A DNA stretch of 64,000 nucleotides, taken from NCBI RefSeq assembly GCF_000233715.2, contig NC_021184.1, forward strand, positions 682,001-746,000, read 5' to 3'. Below the pieces are notes generated by a model, which worked only from the letters and a program-made list of their open reading frames with translations, was not told the origin of the DNA and searched no databases. The translations under genes were made by a program, and so were the position numbers. This DNA comes from Desulfoscipio gibsoniae DSM 7213 (GTDB lineage Bacteria; Bacillota; Desulfotomaculia; Desulfotomaculales; Desulfallaceae). Positions 50,723-59,573 of the stretch are shown here, in pieces (positions within the stretch are counted from its first letter, which is position 1; the number at the start of each line of letters is the position of its first letter).

Positions 50723-51124
50723 TTATTCTTTATCGTCATCAGTTTTAGCAATTGATTGTTTTTCTACTTTACCTTGGTCATTACTTACTTTTTCCTGTGT
50801 ATATGGAGTGCTAGCCCAGCCTTTGGGTGGGTGGGGGTAGCCGGGTGGGTAATAACCTGGCGGACAGTCGATGCCAGGCTTATAACCGCCGCCGGGAGGA
50901 CAGTAATCGGGGCCTGGTTGGTAGCCGCCAGCGGGACCAGGCATGACACAATCGTTCTGCAGAAACTGCTGCCACCAATATAGCTCCTGTTGTTCATGTT
51001 CTACCATCCCGCATATCATATCCCGCAAGGCCGGGGTCGGTGCGCCGGCAGCAATTTGTTGGTACAGGGCAATTTCTTTCTTTTCGATTTCAATAATCTG
51101 CCTTACAATATGATGCCAGGGCAT
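50723..51124 (-). CDS. ferritin-like helical protein with Pro/Gly/Tyr-rich tail
   Basis: 133 residues. The first ~55 form two helices with EKKEIALYQQIA and MVEHEQQELYWW, a half-ferritin pattern of E..E/E.HE residues; then a tail rich in PGP, GGY and CPPG. Paralogous in its helices to the protein at 51280. AAAGGAGG precedes the ATG, and upstream two ATGGAACA(C/T)TATGTATA repeats are present. Tail composition resembles spore-coat proteins. Confidence 0.65.
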   Translation of the reverse strand: MPWHHIVRQIIEIEKKEIALYQQIAAGAPTPALRDMICGMVEHEQQELYWWQQFLQNDCVMPGPAGGYQPGPDYCPPGGGYKPGIDCPPGYYPPGYPHPPKGWASTPYTQEKVSNDQGKVEKQSIAKTDDDKE

Positions 51125-51279: not shown

Positions 51280-51522
51280 TTATTTCTTCTCCTGAGTACT
51301 TTCCTGATTGTAGCACCCGTGCCCGGGCACGTGGGAGGAATCAAAGCAGGCGTAGATACAATTCCAGGTATTGGCTTCAATCGCTTCTTCGGCGATTTTT
51401 TCAATTATCTGCATGCGCATGTTGGCCGTAGGCAGTCTTTCCGCCAGCTGTGCCAATAGGCATATCTCCTGCAACTCAAGTTCCATGGCCTTCTTTACAT
51501 TTTGTAACCAGTGGTATTGCAT
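51280..51522 (-). CDS. ferritin-like helical small protein
   Basis: 80 residues. ELELQEICLLAQLAERLPT and IIEKIAEEAIEANTWN align with the helices of the protein at 50723, with PT at the same turn. Ends with a Cys/His-containing tail (CFDSSHVPGHGC). Ribosome site GGAGG. Divergent from the large beta-helix gene. Confidence 0.65.
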   Translation of the reverse strand: MQYHWLQNVKKAMELELQEICLLAQLAERLPTANMRMQIIEKIAEEAIEANTWNCIYACFDSSHVPGHGCYNQESTQEKK

Positions 51523-51743: not shown

Positions 51744-54700
51744 GTGGAGCCTGTTTTCCAATTAAGCAACCTTACTGTGGTGGTTAAAGATGTAATTACC
51801 GGTGAACCCATCCCCACTTTTAAATTCATTGTCAACCAAAATAATGTGGGTGACCCCCAGGTTGATATCCCGGAGGATGAGCGCGATCCCAGTCTATTTC
51901 CTTCATTAAAACCAGGTGCCAGCTATAGCCCTGTGGTGGCCACGGGGGAGGCTTCGGACGTTGCCATACCGGTGGTTGCACTGCCTGACGGAAAATACCT
52001 GGTTTCGGTACTGGCCCCTCGCTATAAGATGGGTGGCAATTGGGTGATCATGGACGGTACAGATAAAACTGTAGAAGTTCAACTGCAGCCCAACCCACTG
52101 CCGCTGTCCAAAATAAGGGTGCATGTCTTCCAGGATAACAACCCGGTTAACGGTGAGGACGATATTCCGCTGGAAAGCGGATTGGGAGGCTTTAATATCG
52201 TTATTGAGGATGCGGTGGGTGAGGTAACGGTCGATTATTTCGGCCACCCGCTGGGTACCGAATACGAAAGGGACCAGTTTGGTAATTTGATTTTGAACAA
52301 CGGTGAACCTGTCCCTATCCCGGGCACCGGGGGCAAAATAATTACAGATGCCAACGGGGACGCGCTGATTGATAACCTGCCCCCAGGTAAATACGGGGTG
52401 CAGGCTATTCCGCCGGATGGCACGGATTGGATTCAAACCACCACCATTGAAGGAACCCATATTATCGATGCCTGGATAGAGGAAGGCAATGACGGTTACA
52501 GCCCCCGGGAAGGGTTCATGATGCCCCTGGTATGGATCGGGTTCGTCATGCCGATGGAATTTGGCCCACCGCGCCCCTGGGAAACCGGGATAATTACCGG
52601 TCGGGTACTTACGGTCATTGAATTTATCCCGCCTTTCAAACCCCTGACTTTGGGCAACCCGGTGGACCGCCCCTGGATTGCGCTGAGTGATATCGGGGCC
52701 AATGACCAGCAGGTTTACACCGGTCGCGGCGATGTGAACGGTAATTTTACCATTAATAACGTACCGCCGGGTACTTACCAGATGGCTATTTGGGATGAAC
52801 CGCTGGATTATATTATTTCTTTCCGCACCGTACAGGTTGAGCCGGGCGAAACCGTTGCTATGGGGGATATCGGCATTCCCAGATGGTACGGCTATATCAA
52901 GGGCACGGTATTTAACGACCTGAACGCTAACGGTGTTCGCGATCCCGGGGAAAGCGGCATTGCCAACGTGGCGATGAATACTCGCTTTAAGGACGGCAGT
53001 ATCCAGTACAGCACCGTCACGGATATGCATGGCCAGTATGCATTTAACGAAGTATTTGAGCTGGAGCGTTTTGCCGTGGCTGAAGTGGGCTTTGCCCGAT
53101 TGGCTTTTACCGGGGCCACAGCAACTCCGGATTACGGCATTCCGGTACCTGACCCGGTTAACCCGGCTGCTTTGTGCCGGGACGCCAGGGGCAACTACGT
53201 CAGGTGCTCCCAAACTTATAACGGTGTCTTGACTCTGGCTGCGCTCACCTGGGCGGCCAAAACAAACCGCATCGACTGGGGCAAAAGGCTTTATGAAGGG
53301 GAAGAAAGCGGCGGCATATCCGGCGTGGTTATCTATGCTACCATGCGCAACGAGAACGACCCCCGTTATGCCATCGCAGAAGAATACGAACCCGGTATTC
53401 CCAATGTAACCCTTAACCTTTATGCGACAGTTACAGATATGGAAGGTAAGGTGGTTCAAGGGGATCTGATCAATGTTGTGGCCACTGATGCGTGGGAACA
53501 TCCCACGGGTTGCATGGATCCCGACGGCAACATTGATGAACGCTGTATTGAAGTTCCCAATATTTCCAACCAAATCAGACCCGGTGTTTTCGACGGCGGT
53601 TATGCTTTTGAGAGTTATTGGCATCCTTATTACGGGCACCCTGAGGCTGCGGAAGAGCCGCTGCCTCCCGGCACGTATATCGTGGAAGTGATACCACCTG
53701 CGGGATACAAAGCGATTGACCGGGAAGGTTCGGTAAATACGGACCAGGGGGACGAATTTACCAGCCCATCTCTGATGCGTGTACCGCCCCCGCCATACTA
53801 CCCCGAGCCGCCGGATTTCAGTATTACCAAGAAAACCGTGACAGTGGTGGCCGGGATGAACGCGGCAGCAGATTTTTTCCTGTATACGGACGTACCTACT
53901 CCCGGTCGCATTGTGGGATTTTTATTGGACGATGTTAATTTGGAAACCGACCCTGATTTCATTTATTATGGCGAAAAAAGAGGTATCCCCAATACACCGG
54001 TGGGCATCCGGGATTTTACCGGCAGGCTGATAACCACGGTTCATTCCGACATGAACGGCATTTTTGAAGTACTGCTACCTTCCACTTATACCCGCAATGT
54101 ACCTACTCCGTCGGGGGTGGCCCCGGGCATGTACCAGGTAATCGGCAATGACCCGGGCGATCCGGACAGACCCAATGAACACTATAACCCCAATTACCAG
54201 ACGCTAAAATTGGTATTTGACGTATGGCCCGGCAAAACCACCTATGCCGATGTGGCTATGTTCCCTATCACCGCCTTTGTGGGGACACCCGGGGCGCAAT
54301 TTTCTCAACCCCCGCAGTGCCTGGCTATTGAAAATACGCCCCAGTTATTTAGGGTAAGCCGTGTTCATGTGGATGTGGCGGACCCCGGCGTTGAGAACCG
54401 GACGGTGGATATTTGGGGCGCAGGGTTTGGCACTGCGCCGGGCAGCGTGACTTTGGACGGCAGGGAGATTAATATTCTAACCTGGTCTGACCAGGAGATT
54501 ACAGCCCTTGTACCCCACGACTTTGCTGCCGCCGGGCCGGGCCCGGTTCAGTTACTGGTGACTAACGCTGCCGGTAACACCAGCCCGTCCGGTATCACCT
54601 GCCACCTTTGCCGGCAGGGCGAGTACTGGCCCAATATAGTGGAGGTGGCCTTAGATGGTACCGCCGATTACAGCACTATTCAGGAGGCCATCGATAGTGC

Positions 54701-56315
54701 TCCCGACGGTACAATCATCGTGGTATCGGCGGAAACATATTATGAAAGCCCCATCCTGTATAAAAACGTCAAACTCCAGGGCAAAGGCCCGGGAGGCATA
54801 AGCACGGACGGATCGGCGGTGGCGGGATCCGTTATTGACGGCCGTTTCTTCCTTTCTTATACAGAGCAATGGATTGATAAGCTGGCCGGTATTGATTTTG
54901 ACGGGCCGGAACTGGTGGCGCCCGATCAGGCACAAGAGATTCCCCGGGGGCAGGTTCTAACGGTGGTTGCCAAAGCAGGTGCGTTTAGTGACACTTTCCG
55001 ACCCCAGGTGGACGGTTTTAAAATCACGGGGGCCAGCGGTGAAGAGGGCGGCGGTATGTACATTAACGCCCACTGCAGCTACCTGGTCATCAGCAATAAT
55101 GTTATCCAAAGCAACGGCGGCGGTTTCGGCGGTGCCATGACCATCGGCAGAGCCTATGTGGGGAATAATTATAACGATTATATTTACATTCACCATAACC
55201 GCATTCTTAATAACGGCGGTATCAGCCTGGCCGGCGGCATGGGGATCTTTAACGGTGCCGGCGGTTATGAAATTGCCTATAACGATATTTGCGGCAACTA
55301 TTCGGCTGAGTACGGCGGCGGCATATCCCATTTCGGTTACAGCCCGGGTGGGAAAATACATCACAACCGTATTCTGTTCAACGCTTCTTTTGACGAAGGG
55401 GCCGGTGTATTTGTGGGCGGTGAGCAGCCCGTCCCACCGGAAACACTTACCGCCGGGTCGGGGGAAGTGGATATTTACGACAACCTGATTAGAGGCAACC
55501 TGGCTAATGACGACGGTGGCGGCATCCGGCTGCTGCAGCCCCTGGACTACCGGATCAATATTTATAACAATGTGATTGTCAATAATGTTTCCACTGATTT
55601 AGGCGGTGGTATAGCCCTGGATGATGCCTCCAATGTAGTGATAGCCAACAATACCGTGGCCAAGAATATTACCACCGCCACGGCGGAGGACAGCGACGGC
55701 CTGGCCCATGCCGCGGGGCTGGTAAGTGAACTTAACAGCGCTGCTTTCCAGGCCTACCTTGATGATGTGCGGCCGGGGTCGCCCAATTTCAGTGACCCGG
55801 TGCTGTTTAATAATATTTTCTGGGATAACAGAGCGGGGACTTTTAACCAATCCCTTAACGAGGGCCGGGGTGGTATAGGCGGTGTCGGGGCCGAGGGTGA
55901 CCCGCAGCCTGTAAACGTTATGGATATAGAAGTGTTCGGCAGCGGCGCGCTGCTTGATCCCCGGTATTGCAATCTGACCTTCCCTTATGCCGGCGGCAGT
56001 AATAATGTCTACGGAGACCCGGTATTTGCAGATGAGTATGATACCGAGCTAACAGCTGTAGCCTTTAATATGGAACCTGATTTTATAACGGTTAAGATAG
56101 TGACCGTTGTTCCCCAATTAACCGGTGATTATCACCTGACCGGTGAATCAACTTTGGTTATTGACCGGGGTGCCGCTGAAATTACCCGGGGTGGAGAAAC
56201 ATACCAGGCGCCCGGAACGGATTTCGACGGTAATACCAGACCCCGGGGTGCCGGTTATGACATCGGGGCCTACGAATACGTTTTCCCCGCCCCGGACCCG
56301 GAAAGGAGCATTTAA
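51744..56315 (+). CDS. giant beta-sandwich/beta-helix surface protein (1523 aa)
   Basis: GTG start at 51744 with AAGGAGG 8 bp upstream; the open frame extends left to 51450 but has no ribosome site there. Carboxypeptidase-regulatory/SdrD-B-like domains repeat through ~1-860 (GTVFNDLNANGVRDPGESG at ~385), followed by an IPT/TIG domain (~870-955) and a right-handed parallel beta-helix (~965-1320, YSTIQEAIDSAPDGTIIVV). The C-terminus DIGAYEY is of the choice-of-anchor-Q type. No signal peptide, transmembrane anchor or LPXTG is visible. It is followed 1 bp later by a multicopper-oxidase-like gene. Confidence 0.85.
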   Translation: MEPVFQLSNLTVVVKDVITGEPIPTFKFIVNQNNVGDPQVDIPEDERDPSLFPSLKPGASYSPVVATGEASDVAIPVVALPDGKYLVSVLAPRYKMGGNWVIMDGTDKTVEVQLQPNPLPLSKIRVHVFQDNNPVNGEDDIPLESGLGGFNIVIEDAVGEVTVDYFGHPLGTEYERDQFGNLILNNGEPVPIPGTGGKIITDANGDALIDNLPPGKYGVQAIPPDGTDWIQTTTIEGTHIIDAWIEEGNDGYSPREGFMMPLVWIGFVMPMEFGPPRPWETGIITGRVLTVIEFIPPFKPLTLGNPVDRPWIALSDIGANDQQVYTGRGDVNGNFTINNVPPGTYQMAIWDEPLDYIISFRTVQVEPGETVAMGDIGIPRWYGYIKGTVFNDLNANGVRDPGESGIANVAMNTRFKDGSIQYSTVTDMHGQYAFNEVFELERFAVAEVGFARLAFTGATATPDYGIPVPDPVNPAALCRDARGNYVRCSQTYNGVLTLAALTWAAKTNRIDWGKRLYEGEESGGISGVVIYATMRNENDPRYAIAEEYEPGIPNVTLNLYATVTDMEGKVVQGDLINVVATDAWEHPTGCMDPDGNIDERCIEVPNISNQIRPGVFDGGYAFESYWHPYYGHPEAAEEPLPPGTYIVEVIPPAGYKAIDREGSVNTDQGDEFTSPSLMRVPPPPYYPEPPDFSITKKTVTVVAGMNAAADFFLYTDVPTPGRIVGFLLDDVNLETDPDFIYYGEKRGIPNTPVGIRDFTGRLITTVHSDMNGIFEVLLPSTYTRNVPTPSGVAPGMYQVIGNDPGDPDRPNEHYNPNYQTLKLVFDVWPGKTTYADVAMFPITAFVGTPGAQFSQPPQCLAIENTPQLFRVSRVHVDVADPGVENRTVDIWGAGFGTAPGSVTLDGREINILTWSDQEITALVPHDFAAAGPGPVQLLVTNAAGNTSPSGITCHLCRQGEYWPNIVEVALDGTADYSTIQEAIDSAPDGTIIVVSAETYYESPILYKNVKLQGKGPGGISTDGSAVAGSVIDGRFFLSYTEQWIDKLAGIDFDGPELVAPDQAQEIPRGQVLTVVAKAGAFSDTFRPQVDGFKITGASGEEGGGMYINAHCSYLVISNNVIQSNGGGFGGAMTIGRAYVGNNYNDYIYIHHNRILNNGGISLAGGMGIFNGAGGYEIAYNDICGNYSAEYGGGISHFGYSPGGKIHHNRILFNASFDEGAGVFVGGEQPVPPETLTAGSGEVDIYDNLIRGNLANDDGGGIRLLQPLDYRINIYNNVIVNNVSTDLGGGIALDDASNVVIANNTVAKNITTATAEDSDGLAHAAGLVSELNSAAFQAYLDDVRPGSPNFSDPVLFNNIFWDNRAGTFNQSLNEGRGGIGGVGAEGDPQPVNVMDIEVFGSGALLDPRYCNLTFPYAGGSNNVYGDPVFADEYDTELTAVAFNMEPDFITVKIVTVVPQLTGDYHLTGESTLVIDRGAAEITRGGETYQAPGTDFDGNTRPRGAGYDIGAYEYVFPAPDPERSI

Positions 56316-56316
56316 A

Positions 56317-57318
56317 ATGGCTACAGTAATTAAACGTTTCGGTGCCACAGACGGGTGGGTGAATATGCCCGACGGCAGCAGCCATTATATCTTTGGATTT
56401 GTCGATATTACCGGGGTACCTGAAGATCAGATATTCGAATACCGGGGCAAAGCCACCCTGTTGGCTCCCTTATTGGATGTGCACCAGGGTGATGAGGTTT
56501 ATTTAACTCTGACCAACCTGGGATTGCCCGGCAGGCCGGATTTGGATGACACCCATACCATTCACTGGCACGGTTTCCCCAACCAGATCCCTCTGTGGGA
56601 CGGCGTGCCCGAAGCTTCCATTTCGGTGCCGGTGGGCAGGGATTTCACTTATTATTACCAACCGCTGGAACCGGGGACTTATATTTACCACTGCCATTTC
56701 GAGCCCGTTGAGCATATTCAGATGGGCATGGTGGGGCCGCTGACGGTGCGCCCCCAGTTGGAAAAAGAACGGGGTATGAAATTTGTCTATAACGATCCTG
56801 ACACTGCTTATGATCGGGAAGTGCTTATTTTCCTTACCGAATTGGATCCTAAAATTCATGGCGCGGTGGCGGATGTACAGGAATTTGACTGGACGGAATA
56901 CAGGCCGGAATACTGGTTAATCAGCGGGCGTGCTTACCCGGATACGGTGCAGCCCGCCCTTGACCCCGCCCTCCCTCTACAGCCATATTCCACTCTTATC
57001 GAGGCTTACGAAGGCGAAAGGGTGCTGCTGCGATTTGTTAACCTGGGGTTTCAACAGCACTGCATTCAAGTACTGGGGATACCTTTAAAGGTGGTGGGGG
57101 TGGATGCCCAGCAGCTGCGCGGGTATAACGGTGAAGATATCAGCCAATGGAGGAACGCCATCTACATTGCAGCCGGCCAGACGGCTGATGTCATCTTTGA
57201 TGCCTCACGGGCGGGAATTTATCCTTTATATAACCGCAACTACAACAAAAACACCACAGCCGGGAAAACATTCGGCGGTATGGTTTCGGAAATACGGGTG
57301 TTATCCAATCCTTTATGA
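56317..57318 (+). CDS. cupredoxin/multicopper-oxidase-like protein 1, with T1 and half of a trinuclear site
   Basis: 333 residues, two cupredoxin domains, no signal peptide. Domain 1 has His80, His83 and His85 (THTIHWHG), then His125-Cys126-His127, His133 and Met138 (YHCHFEPVEHIQMGM), a complete type-1 copper set plus two HxH motifs. Domain 2 is degenerate (FQQHCIQVLG). ATG with AAAGGAG inside the end of the upstream gene. Could oxidise metal ions or phenols. Confidence 0.85.
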   Translation: MATVIKRFGATDGWVNMPDGSSHYIFGFVDITGVPEDQIFEYRGKATLLAPLLDVHQGDEVYLTLTNLGLPGRPDLDDTHTIHWHGFPNQIPLWDGVPEASISVPVGRDFTYYYQPLEPGTYIYHCHFEPVEHIQMGMVGPLTVRPQLEKERGMKFVYNDPDTAYDREVLIFLTELDPKIHGAVADVQEFDWTEYRPEYWLISGRAYPDTVQPALDPALPLQPYSTLIEAYEGERVLLRFVNLGFQQHCIQVLGIPLKVVGVDAQQLRGYNGEDISQWRNAIYIAAGQTADVIFDASRAGIYPLYNRNYNKNTTAGKTFGGMVSEIRVLSNPL

Positions 57319-57387
57319 AATGAACGAAAGTAACCGGTGCCTGGCCTGCGGCAGTCAGGCGCCGGGGAATCCAAAGGAGAGAGCAAT

Positions 57388-58539
57388 ATGCCTGAAATAA
57401 ACCTTTGGGCAAAAGACGGCTACTTAAGCACCCCCGACGGTAATAGTATCTATTTTTGGGGTTTTGCCAAAAGTGCAGCCGGCCCTGCCCAGCTGCCGGG
57501 ACCGAATATTATTGCCAGGCAGGGAGAAACAATCACGGTTAACTTGCATAATATGCTGGCCGAACCGGTATCCATTGCCTTTCCCGGCCAACAAGTTACT
57601 GTGGAGGGTCAGCCGGTGCAGCCCCAGTATAAAAATAACCGGCTGCTGTCTTTTGTAAATTACGCTGAACCGGGGGGCACGGTGGCATATACTTTTACAC
57701 CGTCCCATCCAGGAACCTATTTATACGAAAGCGGCACTAATCCCTATCAACAGGTGCCCATGGGATTATACGGGGGCATGGTGGTGCGGCCCGCCGATTA
57801 CAACCCCGATGTCCCTGAGTATAAAACAGCCTACGGTGCCGGGACAGACACGGGTTTTGACCGGGAATACCTGCTGATCACCGGAGAAATCGACCCGGAT
57901 TTACACCAGGCGGTGGAGAACGGCAAGCCCTACCGGGTCAGCAAATACGTGCCCCGTTACTGGACCCTCAACGGGCGCTGCGCCCCGGATACCATGTTGA
58001 TGGATCATGTTGATTATTTGCCTCATCAGCCATACGGTGCCATGATTATGGGGCTGCCCGGTGAAAAAATACTGCTGCGATACATTGGAGCCGGGATTGA
58101 TAACCACCCCCTGCATCCGCACGGCGCCCATACCAGGGTGGTGGCGGTGGATGGGCGGCTGCTGAGAAACGGCAATGCCGATCTTTCCTATAAAAGGTTT
58201 ACCGTTTTGGTGGGAGTCGGTCAGACCTACGACCAAATATACCAATGGGATGGCTTAGGTTACACCCCCGGCAATCCCATTCCCACTGTGCTTCCTAATT
58301 TACGGAATATGGGAGTCGGGGATGCCGGGTGGACGATGTGGAGCGGAAGTCCTTATCTGGGGGTCAAGGGAGATATACCGGTAGGGGTGGTTTCTTATAA
58401 TGAGATGGGTGAATATTACTTTATGCTGCACTCCCACGAAGAATTACAGATTACCAACTGGGGTGAGTTTCCCGGCGGAATGATGACTATGGTGGCAATA
58501 TATCCGTCACTTGCCCCTGATATTGGGGTAATTGGGTAA
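57388..58539 (+). CDS. cupredoxin/multicopper-oxidase-like protein 2, with the other half of a trinuclear site
   Basis: 383 residues, two cupredoxin domains. Domain 1 lost its ligands (SIAFPGQ, YLYESGTNP), but domain 2 has His240, His243 and His245 (NHPLHPHG) and His348-Ser-His350 (LHSHEE). The type-1 Cys is replaced by Ser349. These motifs are just those missing from protein 1. AAAGGAGA precedes the ATG. No signal peptide. Confidence 0.82.
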   Translation: MPEINLWAKDGYLSTPDGNSIYFWGFAKSAAGPAQLPGPNIIARQGETITVNLHNMLAEPVSIAFPGQQVTVEGQPVQPQYKNNRLLSFVNYAEPGGTVAYTFTPSHPGTYLYESGTNPYQQVPMGLYGGMVVRPADYNPDVPEYKTAYGAGTDTGFDREYLLITGEIDPDLHQAVENGKPYRVSKYVPRYWTLNGRCAPDTMLMDHVDYLPHQPYGAMIMGLPGEKILLRYIGAGIDNHPLHPHGAHTRVVAVDGRLLRNGNADLSYKRFTVLVGVGQTYDQIYQWDGLGYTPGNPIPTVLPNLRNMGVGDAGWTMWSGSPYLGVKGDIPVGVVSYNEMGEYYFMLHSHEELQITNWGEFPGGMMTMVAIYPSLAPDIGVIG

Positions 58540-58565
58540 ATTTTTTTGAAAGGAGTGAAGTAAGC

Positions 58566-59573
58566 ATGGCTATAGTAGCCAGGATATTTCAAGCGGCAGC
58601 CGGATTTTTATCTTTTCCCGGTGCGAATGCTATCCCTTTTTGGGGCTTTACCGAGGCCCTGGCCGATAAACCGCAGTACCCGGGGCCTCTAATTGAGGCA
58701 ACCGCGGGGGATCAAATATTAATTTGGTTAATGCGTAATTATCTAGAACCCATAGTGGAGCCGATTTCGATAACTTTTCCGGGACAGGAAAATGTGCTGG
58801 TAAGAAAAATTCCCTGGGGCCCGTTTATCTATGAACCTGTAAAACCTCAATATGCAGCGGGAAAAATGATCTCCCTAACTAATTATTTGGACGAAAATAG
58901 AGACATTTTAGTTGAATATAGTTTTATAGCTTCAAGACCGGGCATTTACCTGTATGAAAGCGGTACCAATCCGGAAAAACAAGTCCAGATGGGGCTCTAC
59001 GGCATTATTGTAGTAAGGCCGGTGGGCTATAATATTCCGGGGCATCCAAACTATAAGACAGCTTACGGCGCTGATACCAATTCCGGCTATGACGTGGAGA
59101 AAGTATTGGTTTTAGGTGAGATTGATACTGTTATGCATAATAATGTAGTCCCCAATGTTTACTATGACATGCTTGATTTTAAACCGGATTTTTGGGTTGT
59201 CAACGGTCGCAGTTTCCCGGATACAATCAATGAGGAACAGATATCCAGCCAACCTTACGATGCGGCGATAAATTGCCGGGTGGGGCAGAGAGTATTATTA
59301 AGGATCGTCAACGCCGGCTTCCAAAACCATACCTTTTACCTGGGCGACCTGGTGGGGCGGATAGTGGCTGAGGACGGCATGCCGTTAAAAACGCAATCGT
59401 TGGACGCCACCTATGAAAAAACCGGAACAACCCTGGGCTCCGGACAGAGAATCGATATCATCTTAACCCCTGCCACCCCGGGCGAATACTACCTGTACGA
59501 CAGAGAATACCAGCACCTGGTAAACAACGACCAGTTCCCGGGAGGTATGATGACCAAAATAAACGTACGCTAG
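58566..59573 (+). CDS. cupredoxin/multicopper-oxidase-like protein 3, without copper ligands
   Basis: 335 residues, same fold and the shared motifs IPFWGF, ISITFPGQ, YLYESGTNP and FPGGMM. No HxH pair remains, so it is probably structural or a scaffold. AAAGGAGTG precedes the ATG; the TAG stop starts a long inverted repeat. Confidence 0.8.
   Translation: MAIVARIFQAAAGFLSFPGANAIPFWGFTEALADKPQYPGPLIEATAGDQILIWLMRNYLEPIVEPISITFPGQENVLVRKIPWGPFIYEPVKPQYAAGKMISLTNYLDENRDILVEYSFIASRPGIYLYESGTNPEKQVQMGLYGIIVVRPVGYNIPGHPNYKTAYGADTNSGYDVEKVLVLGEIDTVMHNNVVPNVYYDMLDFKPDFWVVNGRSFPDTINEEQISSQPYDAAINCRVGQRVLLRIVNAGFQNHTFYLGDLVGRIVAEDGMPLKTQSLDATYEKTGTTLGSGQRIDIILTPATPGEYYLYDREYQHLVNNDQFPGGMMTKINVR

Follow-up and report, generated by a model that had tools for sequence, protein, structure and literature searches.

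The question raised by this locus is how three adjacent genes for multicopper oxidase-like proteins, of which two encode a part of the copper ligands each and the third encodes none, could give rise to one oxidase. The genes, here called P1, P2 and P3, lie in a stretch of 64,000 nucleotides from Desulfoscipio gibsoniae DSM 7213 (contig NC_021184.1, positions 682,001 to 746,000; hereafter the window) and form, with the gene GIANT upstream of them, a cassette of four genes in the same direction, as read from the open reading frame (ORF) list of the window and its translations. Based on the comparative analysis of this cassette, we consider it likely that the three proteins are an obligate heterotrimer, in which a single trinuclear cluster would be built from two gene products and a dead third protomer would moor the enzyme to a giant protein of the cell surface or the spore, and that such a change from a homotrimer to a heteromer with divided ligands arose at least twice.

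Copper ligands divided between two genes

All three proteins match the multicopper oxidase families (Pfam Cu-oxidase), with two cupredoxin domains per protomer. P1 (56317-57318, plus strand, 333 amino acids) has the ligands of a type-1 copper site and of the first-domain half of a trinuclear site. Translation and column conservation place its motif HTIHWHG, with His80 and His83-Trp-His85, at residues 80-86 (56554-56574), and the type-1 set of Cys126, His133 and Met138 follows, together with two trinuclear histidines, in His125-Cys126-His127 ... His133 ... Met138 (56689-56730). His80, which was unnamed in the original prediction, is at the fourth type-1 ligand position of the family. P2 (57388-58539, plus strand, 383 amino acids) has the trinuclear ligands that belong to the second domain, with HPLHPH at residues 240-245 (58105-58122; HPLHPHG at 240-246) giving the ligand positions 243 and 245 and HSH at residues 348-350 (58429-58437) giving the remaining two; at the type-1 Cys position, where P1 has Cys126, it has Ser115 (57730-57732). 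P3 (58566-59573, plus strand, 335 amino acids) is without copper ligands, with 0/8 for the first-domain and type-1 positions and 0/4 for the second-domain trinuclear histidines. At the HxH position of the second domain the three proteins read YNR (P1), HSH (P2) and YDR (P3), and there is no Cys in any of these segments. The HWH, HCH and Cys126/His133/Met138 of P1, the HPLHPH, HSH and serine of P2 and the copper-free third paralogue, from which the original prediction had deduced an oxidase split over two polypeptides, are thus all present. P1, P2 and P3 are separate ORFs, each with a stop codon and a ribosome-binding site, one base separates the stop of GIANT from the start of P1, and no P1-P2-P3 fusion was found among the loci examined. 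In the window genome, PF07732, PF07731 and PF00394 matched P1, P2 and P3 only, and no further multicopper oxidase domain that could complete P1 in the same cell was found.

Relatives were collected from an order set (113 genomes, 17 matched at E 1e-10), a phylum set (398 genomes, 23 matched at E 1e-20), contigs of named genomes (the best 80 of 229 relatives, giving 79 loci) and plasmids (173 records matched P2, two of which, L172 and L173, were examined); no viral-contig relative of P2 was confirmed. To read the ligands, 171 proteins of 71 loci were aligned jointly, and 56 loci with cassette genes were counted. Matches below 75 bits, proteins of Ktedonobacteria and Dictyobacter, a single-chain group from Bacillota and the P1 fragments L061 and L071 were excluded from the count, and seven ORFs with P2 as their best match were counted as P3, since another P2 precedes each of them. 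Another 27 named loci (L095-L121), which held solely distant larger oxidases with 24-29% identity, were kept out of the table. A score out of eight refers to the type-1 and first-domain trinuclear ligands of P1 and a score out of four to the second-domain trinuclear histidines, and GIANT was called present at 200 bits or more.

The cassette was found in Bacillota, Chloroflexota, Myxococcota, Pseudomonadota, Planctomycetota and Acidobacteriota. P1 has all eight ligands in 48 of 51 copies, the exceptions being L063, L068 and L088, and P2 has all four trinuclear histidines in 46 of 49. Among the three P2 copies with a lower score, L036 is a fragment, L065 has one His changed to Asn, and L094 is a trimming artefact: its full ORF has the HSH motif, and the alignment gaps at two positions come from C-terminal trimming. 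The opposite halves are nearly empty, as domain 2 of P1 has none of the four histidines in 49 of 50 copies, and in P2 the eight domain-1 ligands are all missing from 37 of 48 copies, with one or two of them, mostly the His before the Ser, left in the other 11. A serine stands at the domain-1 Cys position in 46/48 P2 and in 42 P3. P3 has 0/8 domain-1 ligands in 45 of 48 copies and 0/4 domain-2 histidines in 40 of 51, and it scored above the threshold in 43 of the 47 loci having both P1 and P2; in the other four (L070, L081, L083, L088) the sequence ends soon after P2 or there are weak P3-like matches only. The complementarity of P1 and P2, with degeneration of the matching domains, was therefore borne out beyond the window, and the survey of homologues that the original prediction had called for showed that the complementary sets are kept over several phyla. 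Of the five domain-2 positions, the first (His240 in the P2 of the window) is Tyr or Ser in four P2, and its equivalent is His in 38/51 P1 and 45/51 P3. It is not a marker and may be read as a vacant type-1 position.

The ligand columns also stand out from the rest of the alignment. The eight columns of P1 are 94-100% conserved in 51 copies, a level reached by only 44 of 358 columns, and the four trinuclear columns of P2 are 98-100% conserved in 48 copies, as are 45 of 401 columns; the respective p values, about 3e-8 and about 1.4e-4, take columns as exchangeable and ignore relatedness. Within P1, the trinuclear histidines 83, 85, 125 and 127 are conserved at 94-98% and the type-1 ligands at 98-100%.

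Joint presence, concerted loss and the association of P3 with GIANT

P1 was present in all 18 genomes of the phylum set that had a full P2 match. In the order set, 12 of the 13 genomes with a P1 of at least 50% identity have P2, and in the thirteenth (G004), which is without P2, the ligands of P1 are lost. The original prediction regarded homologues of P1 or P2 occurring alone with the same ligands as the case that would speak against it; across both genome sets and the 79 named loci no stand-alone copy with an intact set was found apart from the frameshifted L071, copies cut off by the end of a contig (L050) and the single-chain relatives from Ktedonobacteria and Bacillota, which have both ligand halves on one protein. 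Within the genus to which the window belongs, P1 was absent from all six other genomes (G019-G024), which indicates that it is often lost or moved horizontally.

The loci that lack P2 show what becomes of P1 there. In L063, whose contig is 114 kb long, and in L068, P3 directly follows P1, and tblastn with P2 returned only the P1 and P3 paralogues. The P1 ligand positions of L063 read HYEHCYHM, with the type-1 set kept and three trinuclear histidines lost; those of L068 read LDRYCPRM, with every ligand His lost. The intactness of the ligands likewise goes with GIANT, a relative of which adjoins P1 in 44 of 51 P1 loci. Every one of these 44 loci has a P1 with 8/8 ligands, and wherever the contig also includes P2, as in 43 of them, P2 scores 4/4 (for L094, when its full ORF is read). 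L063, L065 and L068 have 6-9 kb of upstream sequence and no GIANT, and in each of the three the ligand sets are damaged, which against none of 44 loci with GIANT gives an exact probability of about 6e-5, with shared ancestry ignored. The upstream sequence is short in L081, L082 and L088, of which L088 is damaged and the other two are intact. In L071, GIANT is in two pieces. A genuine complementarity that several phyla share, and that disappears in a concerted way, supports a hetero-oligomeric oxidase.

GIANT (51744-56315, plus strand) is a surface-type protein of 1523 amino acids with a GTG start after AAGGAGG. It was absent from the complex that was originally proposed. Matches above the Pfam/NCBIfam cut-offs were SdrD_B, CarboxypepD_reg, fn3_3, SpaA and choice-of-anchor Q, and TIG and Beta_helix matched below them. 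In Cupriavidus metallidurans CH34 (L172, 10506-18632), which is a laboratory strain, and in Paraburkholderia largidicola (L173, 10460-18694), P3 and GIANT are joined in one ORF of about 2700 amino acids with the P3 part first; the gene order there is P1, P2, P3-GIANT, and P1 and P2 keep their complementary ligand sets. Moreover, in L166, P3 remains beside a GIANT fragment, with P1, P2 and most of GIANT missing. These arrangements suggest that P3 and GIANT belong together, and the natural fusion is the best evidence for it.

Assembly of the proposed enzyme and its alternatives

Two-domain oxidases form trimers, in which the trinuclear coppers are held by residues of two protomers, and type C is the class with the T1 copper in the N-terminal domain, according to passages of a published account (PMC13151041). 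The best solved oxidase for the P1, P2 and P3 profiles was 3g5w; 2zwn was the second oxidase for P1 and P3 and the third for P2, behind the nitrite reductase-like 5zl1. Both 3g5w (Nitrosomonas europaea) and 2zwn (a metagenomic laccase) are type-C enzymes. In such homotrimers, domain 1 of a protomer and domain 2 of the adjacent one enclose a trinuclear site, and the known type-C oxidases are products of one gene, in which every protomer has all ligands and the homotrimer has three active sites. The proteins of the cassette resemble them in having the type-1 site in domain 1 only (His80, Cys126, His133 and Met138 of P1), HxH and HCH in domain 1 and HxH pairs in domain 2, but P1 and P2 each encode only a part of the ligands of one site and the P3 gene is without ligands.

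In the heterotrimer that we propose, P1, P2 and P3 would be paralogous protomers derived from a homotrimeric two-domain, type-C-like oxidase. Two of the three ancestral sites would have been lost, and the remaining one would be made by domain 1 of P1, with the type-1 copper and four histidines, and domain 2 of P2, with another four; judging from the ligand patterns, the placement of the trinuclear site between these two domains is quite probable. A substrate would donate electrons to the type-1 copper of P1, and the His-Cys-His bridge would carry them to the trinuclear cluster, where O2 would be reduced to water. P3 would be a protomer without catalytic activity, completing the ring and linking the enzyme to GIANT, and we somewhat favour its membership in the ring.

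The structural model did not support this interface. An AlphaFold model of the P1 and P2 of the window, read through as one chain, reached a predicted local distance difference test score (pLDDT) of 83 and a predicted template modelling score (pTM) of 0.83, and its alignment passed a check on the placement of paralogue rows. The top structural matches of this model were 2zwn and 3g5w (Z 29.6), and nitrite reductases were also among the best fold matches. In Foldseek, its query-based template modelling score (TMq) was 0.53-0.57 against ceruloplasmin over 780-868 columns and 0.58 against MnxG (9bxa) over 915 columns.

Several observations weigh against the proposed assembly. The Foldseek alignments, read as consecutive units, suggest the non-complementary contact, between domain 2 of P1 and domain 1 of P2, and the loops beside both ligand halves (86-100 and 651-694) have a pLDDT below 50. 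The model was counted as no support because its fixed chain order, P1 before P2, biases it towards that contact. Additionally, P3 retains one or two of the four domain-2 histidines in 11 of 51 copies. P1 of L088 has one ligand His changed to Pro with an intact P2, and L065 has an intact P1 with one His of P2 changed. Finally, L071 is without P2, and domain 1 of its P1 is intact although the P1 is frameshifted and runs into one half of a P3. The original idea of a hetero-oligomeric oxidase with P3 as its scaffold is partly supported, by the complementarity, its conservation and its concerted loss, and the interface finds no support in the AlphaFold model.

These data may also be explained in other ways. 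P1 and P2 could be the active pair, as a dimer or an alternating higher ring, with P3 outside the ring as a part of the GIANT surface structure only. This would suit the P3-GIANT fusions in Cupriavidus and Paraburkholderia, the P3 of L166 that stays with the GIANT fragment after P1 and P2 are gone, and the two-gene oxidase of Dictyobacter, which has no P3 match in its locus. However, P3 is a full two-cupredoxin protein and the sister of P2, and two-domain oxidases are described as trimers in the passages of PMC13151041, and we regard such a pair as possible but rather unlikely. A more distant case is that P1 alone is a blue-copper (type-1) electron carrier and P2 a separate copper-binding protein, with no trinuclear cluster at all. 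The type-1 ligands that P1 of L063 keeps despite having no P2 are in line with it, as is the failure of the AlphaFold pair model to support the complementary interface. Nevertheless, the trinuclear histidines of P1 are conserved nearly as well as its type-1 ligands, which would be needless in a lone type-1 protein, and it was precisely the trinuclear histidines that L063 lost, which makes the lone carrier improbable.

We give very little credence to the view that a former oxidase is decaying here and that its genes have no present function. Among six domains there is one complete ligand set, the cassette is patchy, with P1 missing from every other genome of the genus, and frames are broken in several loci (GIANT in L043 and L046, P3 in L052, both P1 and GIANT in L071, and P1 of L061, which is cut by Ns); yet the ligand columns keep 94-100% conservation over several phyla and the frames are open in most loci. 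Equally remote is a copper nitrite reductase-like enzyme that is not an oxidase. It would share the fold, nitrite reductases were among the best fold matches, 5zl1 was the second sequence match of P2, and TIGR02376 matched P1 weakly, but at 38 bits, far below its cut-off of 296.3. Furthermore, P1 and P2 together supply eight trinuclear histidines (HxH, HCH, HxH and HxH), a set that nitrite reductases are not known to have.

Origin of the division, related oxidases and location

In a tree of 73 proteins with the ligand columns blanked, P1 (19 rows), P2 (19) and P3 (18) each formed one clade, with Shimodaira-Hasegawa-like approximate likelihood ratio test (SH-aLRT) supports of 99, 97 and 85, respectively, and P2 and P3 were sister clades (SH-aLRT 99). 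Since each of the three is one clade, the division is older than the spread over the phyla. The single-chain oxidases from Bacillota have 470-570 amino acids (L037-L041, L085, L087, L090) and both halves complete in six of eight, L085 and L090 being without some ligand positions, and two proteins from Ktedonobacteria (L086, L089) are also single chains with both ligand halves. In Dictyobacter, a two-gene oxidase was found (L091, 7654-9948; L092, 7612-9948), in which the gene with the domain-2 ligands adjoins the one with the domain-1 ligands. It resembles the cassette in that one subunit has the domain-1 ligands and the other the domain-2 ligands, but it has a separate origin inside the Ktedonobacteria oxidases, the reverse gene order and, by blastp, no P3 or GIANT match at the locus. 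A shared origin of the Dictyobacter split with P1 or with P2 and P3 was rejected by approximately unbiased (AU) tests (p 1.4e-4 and 3.1e-6), in which the groups were picked after viewing the tree and L042 was left out. According to this rejection, the split happened at least two times.

Three- and six-domain multicopper oxidases are single chains and the six-domain enzymes are monomeric, as stated in parts of PMC13151041, and in a portion of PMC3600357 the triplication of a two-domain protein is proposed as the origin of six-domain oxidases. P1, P2 and P3 resemble ceruloplasmin and MnxG in their total of six cupredoxin domains, with one trinuclear site expected, but those are single six-domain polypeptides and here there are three separate ORFs. 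Ceruloplasmin has its type-1 copper in even-numbered domains; in the cassette it would be in domain 1 of P1. Neither the P1 nor the P2 profile had MnxG among its 60 best sequence matches. The MnxEFG complex of Bacillus is described in part of PMC5622069 as a multi-subunit, operon-encoded copper oxidase that is active on spores. The cassette is similarly a putative operon for a multi-subunit copper oxidase, with a proposed spore location. Heterodimeric fungal laccases also have more than one subunit. Their small subunit is unrelated and has no copper ligand. In the titles and abstract beginnings that searches of open-licence PubMed Central papers returned, we found no description of a heteromeric cupredoxin oxidase of the kind proposed here. 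If our reading is true, the heterotrimer would be a multi-chain, multi-gene counterpart of the one-site architecture of single-chain ceruloplasmin, and it would show how a symmetric enzyme can be reduced to a single active site while its genes stay separate. Dividing the ligands among the subunits of a conserved heteromer would be a quaternary arrangement new to multicopper oxidases, and it would also explain 'degenerate' oxidase genes that are annotated as separate enzymes.

As to location, in the loci from outside the Bacillota that were examined most proteins start, as judged by eye, with a signal peptide or a lipoprotein-like start, and the parts look exported. By the same inspection, no signal peptides were seen in the Bacillota examined (the window, Tepidibacillus, Moorella and Desulfoscipio), including on GIANT of the window. 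For the promoter analysis 34 Bacillota loci were tried, of which two had no GIANT and five no clear start, leaving 27, some of them close relatives. A first scan with sigma-E and sigma-K patterns gave 6/27. With a sigma-K-like pattern (AC, 15-17 bases, CATANNNTA), exact sites at most 180 bases upstream of GIANT were found in 5/27 loci (0.36 expected, at most 2 in 200 dinucleotide shuffles), and sites with up to one mismatch in 18/27 (5.8 expected, at most 11 in the shuffles). Against a spore placement is that the region upstream of GIANT in the window itself has a two-mismatch site only. We put the chances that in Bacillota the mother cell deposits the parts on the spore surface at about even. 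SpoIVA was uninformative as a correlate of the cassette; the window genome has it, as do 104 of the 113 order genomes, so the spore placement cannot be tested by its co-occurrence. A cassette with sigma-K-like sites in anaerobic sporeformers raises the question of what role an O2-reducing enzyme would have there.

The remaining observations concern single loci and neighbouring genes. The P3 profile list is headed by titin Fn3 matches because the P3 alignment contains Fn3-like extensions; a long C-terminal extension, where the profile matches titin Fn3, is present on P3 of L028 (5121-6956), L031 (4467-6401) and L033 (5415-7250). In L163 (7429-10689), P1 lies in an open frame of 1086 codons that runs into GIANT in another frame, an overlap taken as chance. 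When a conserved neighbour beyond the cassette was sought in Bacillota, the leading recurrent clusters looked like antisense or shadow frames. In the window, two minus-strand ORFs diverge from GIANT, one of 80 amino acids (51280-51522) and one of 133 amino acids (50723-51124), which has no Pfam match and carries a proline/glycine-rich tail.

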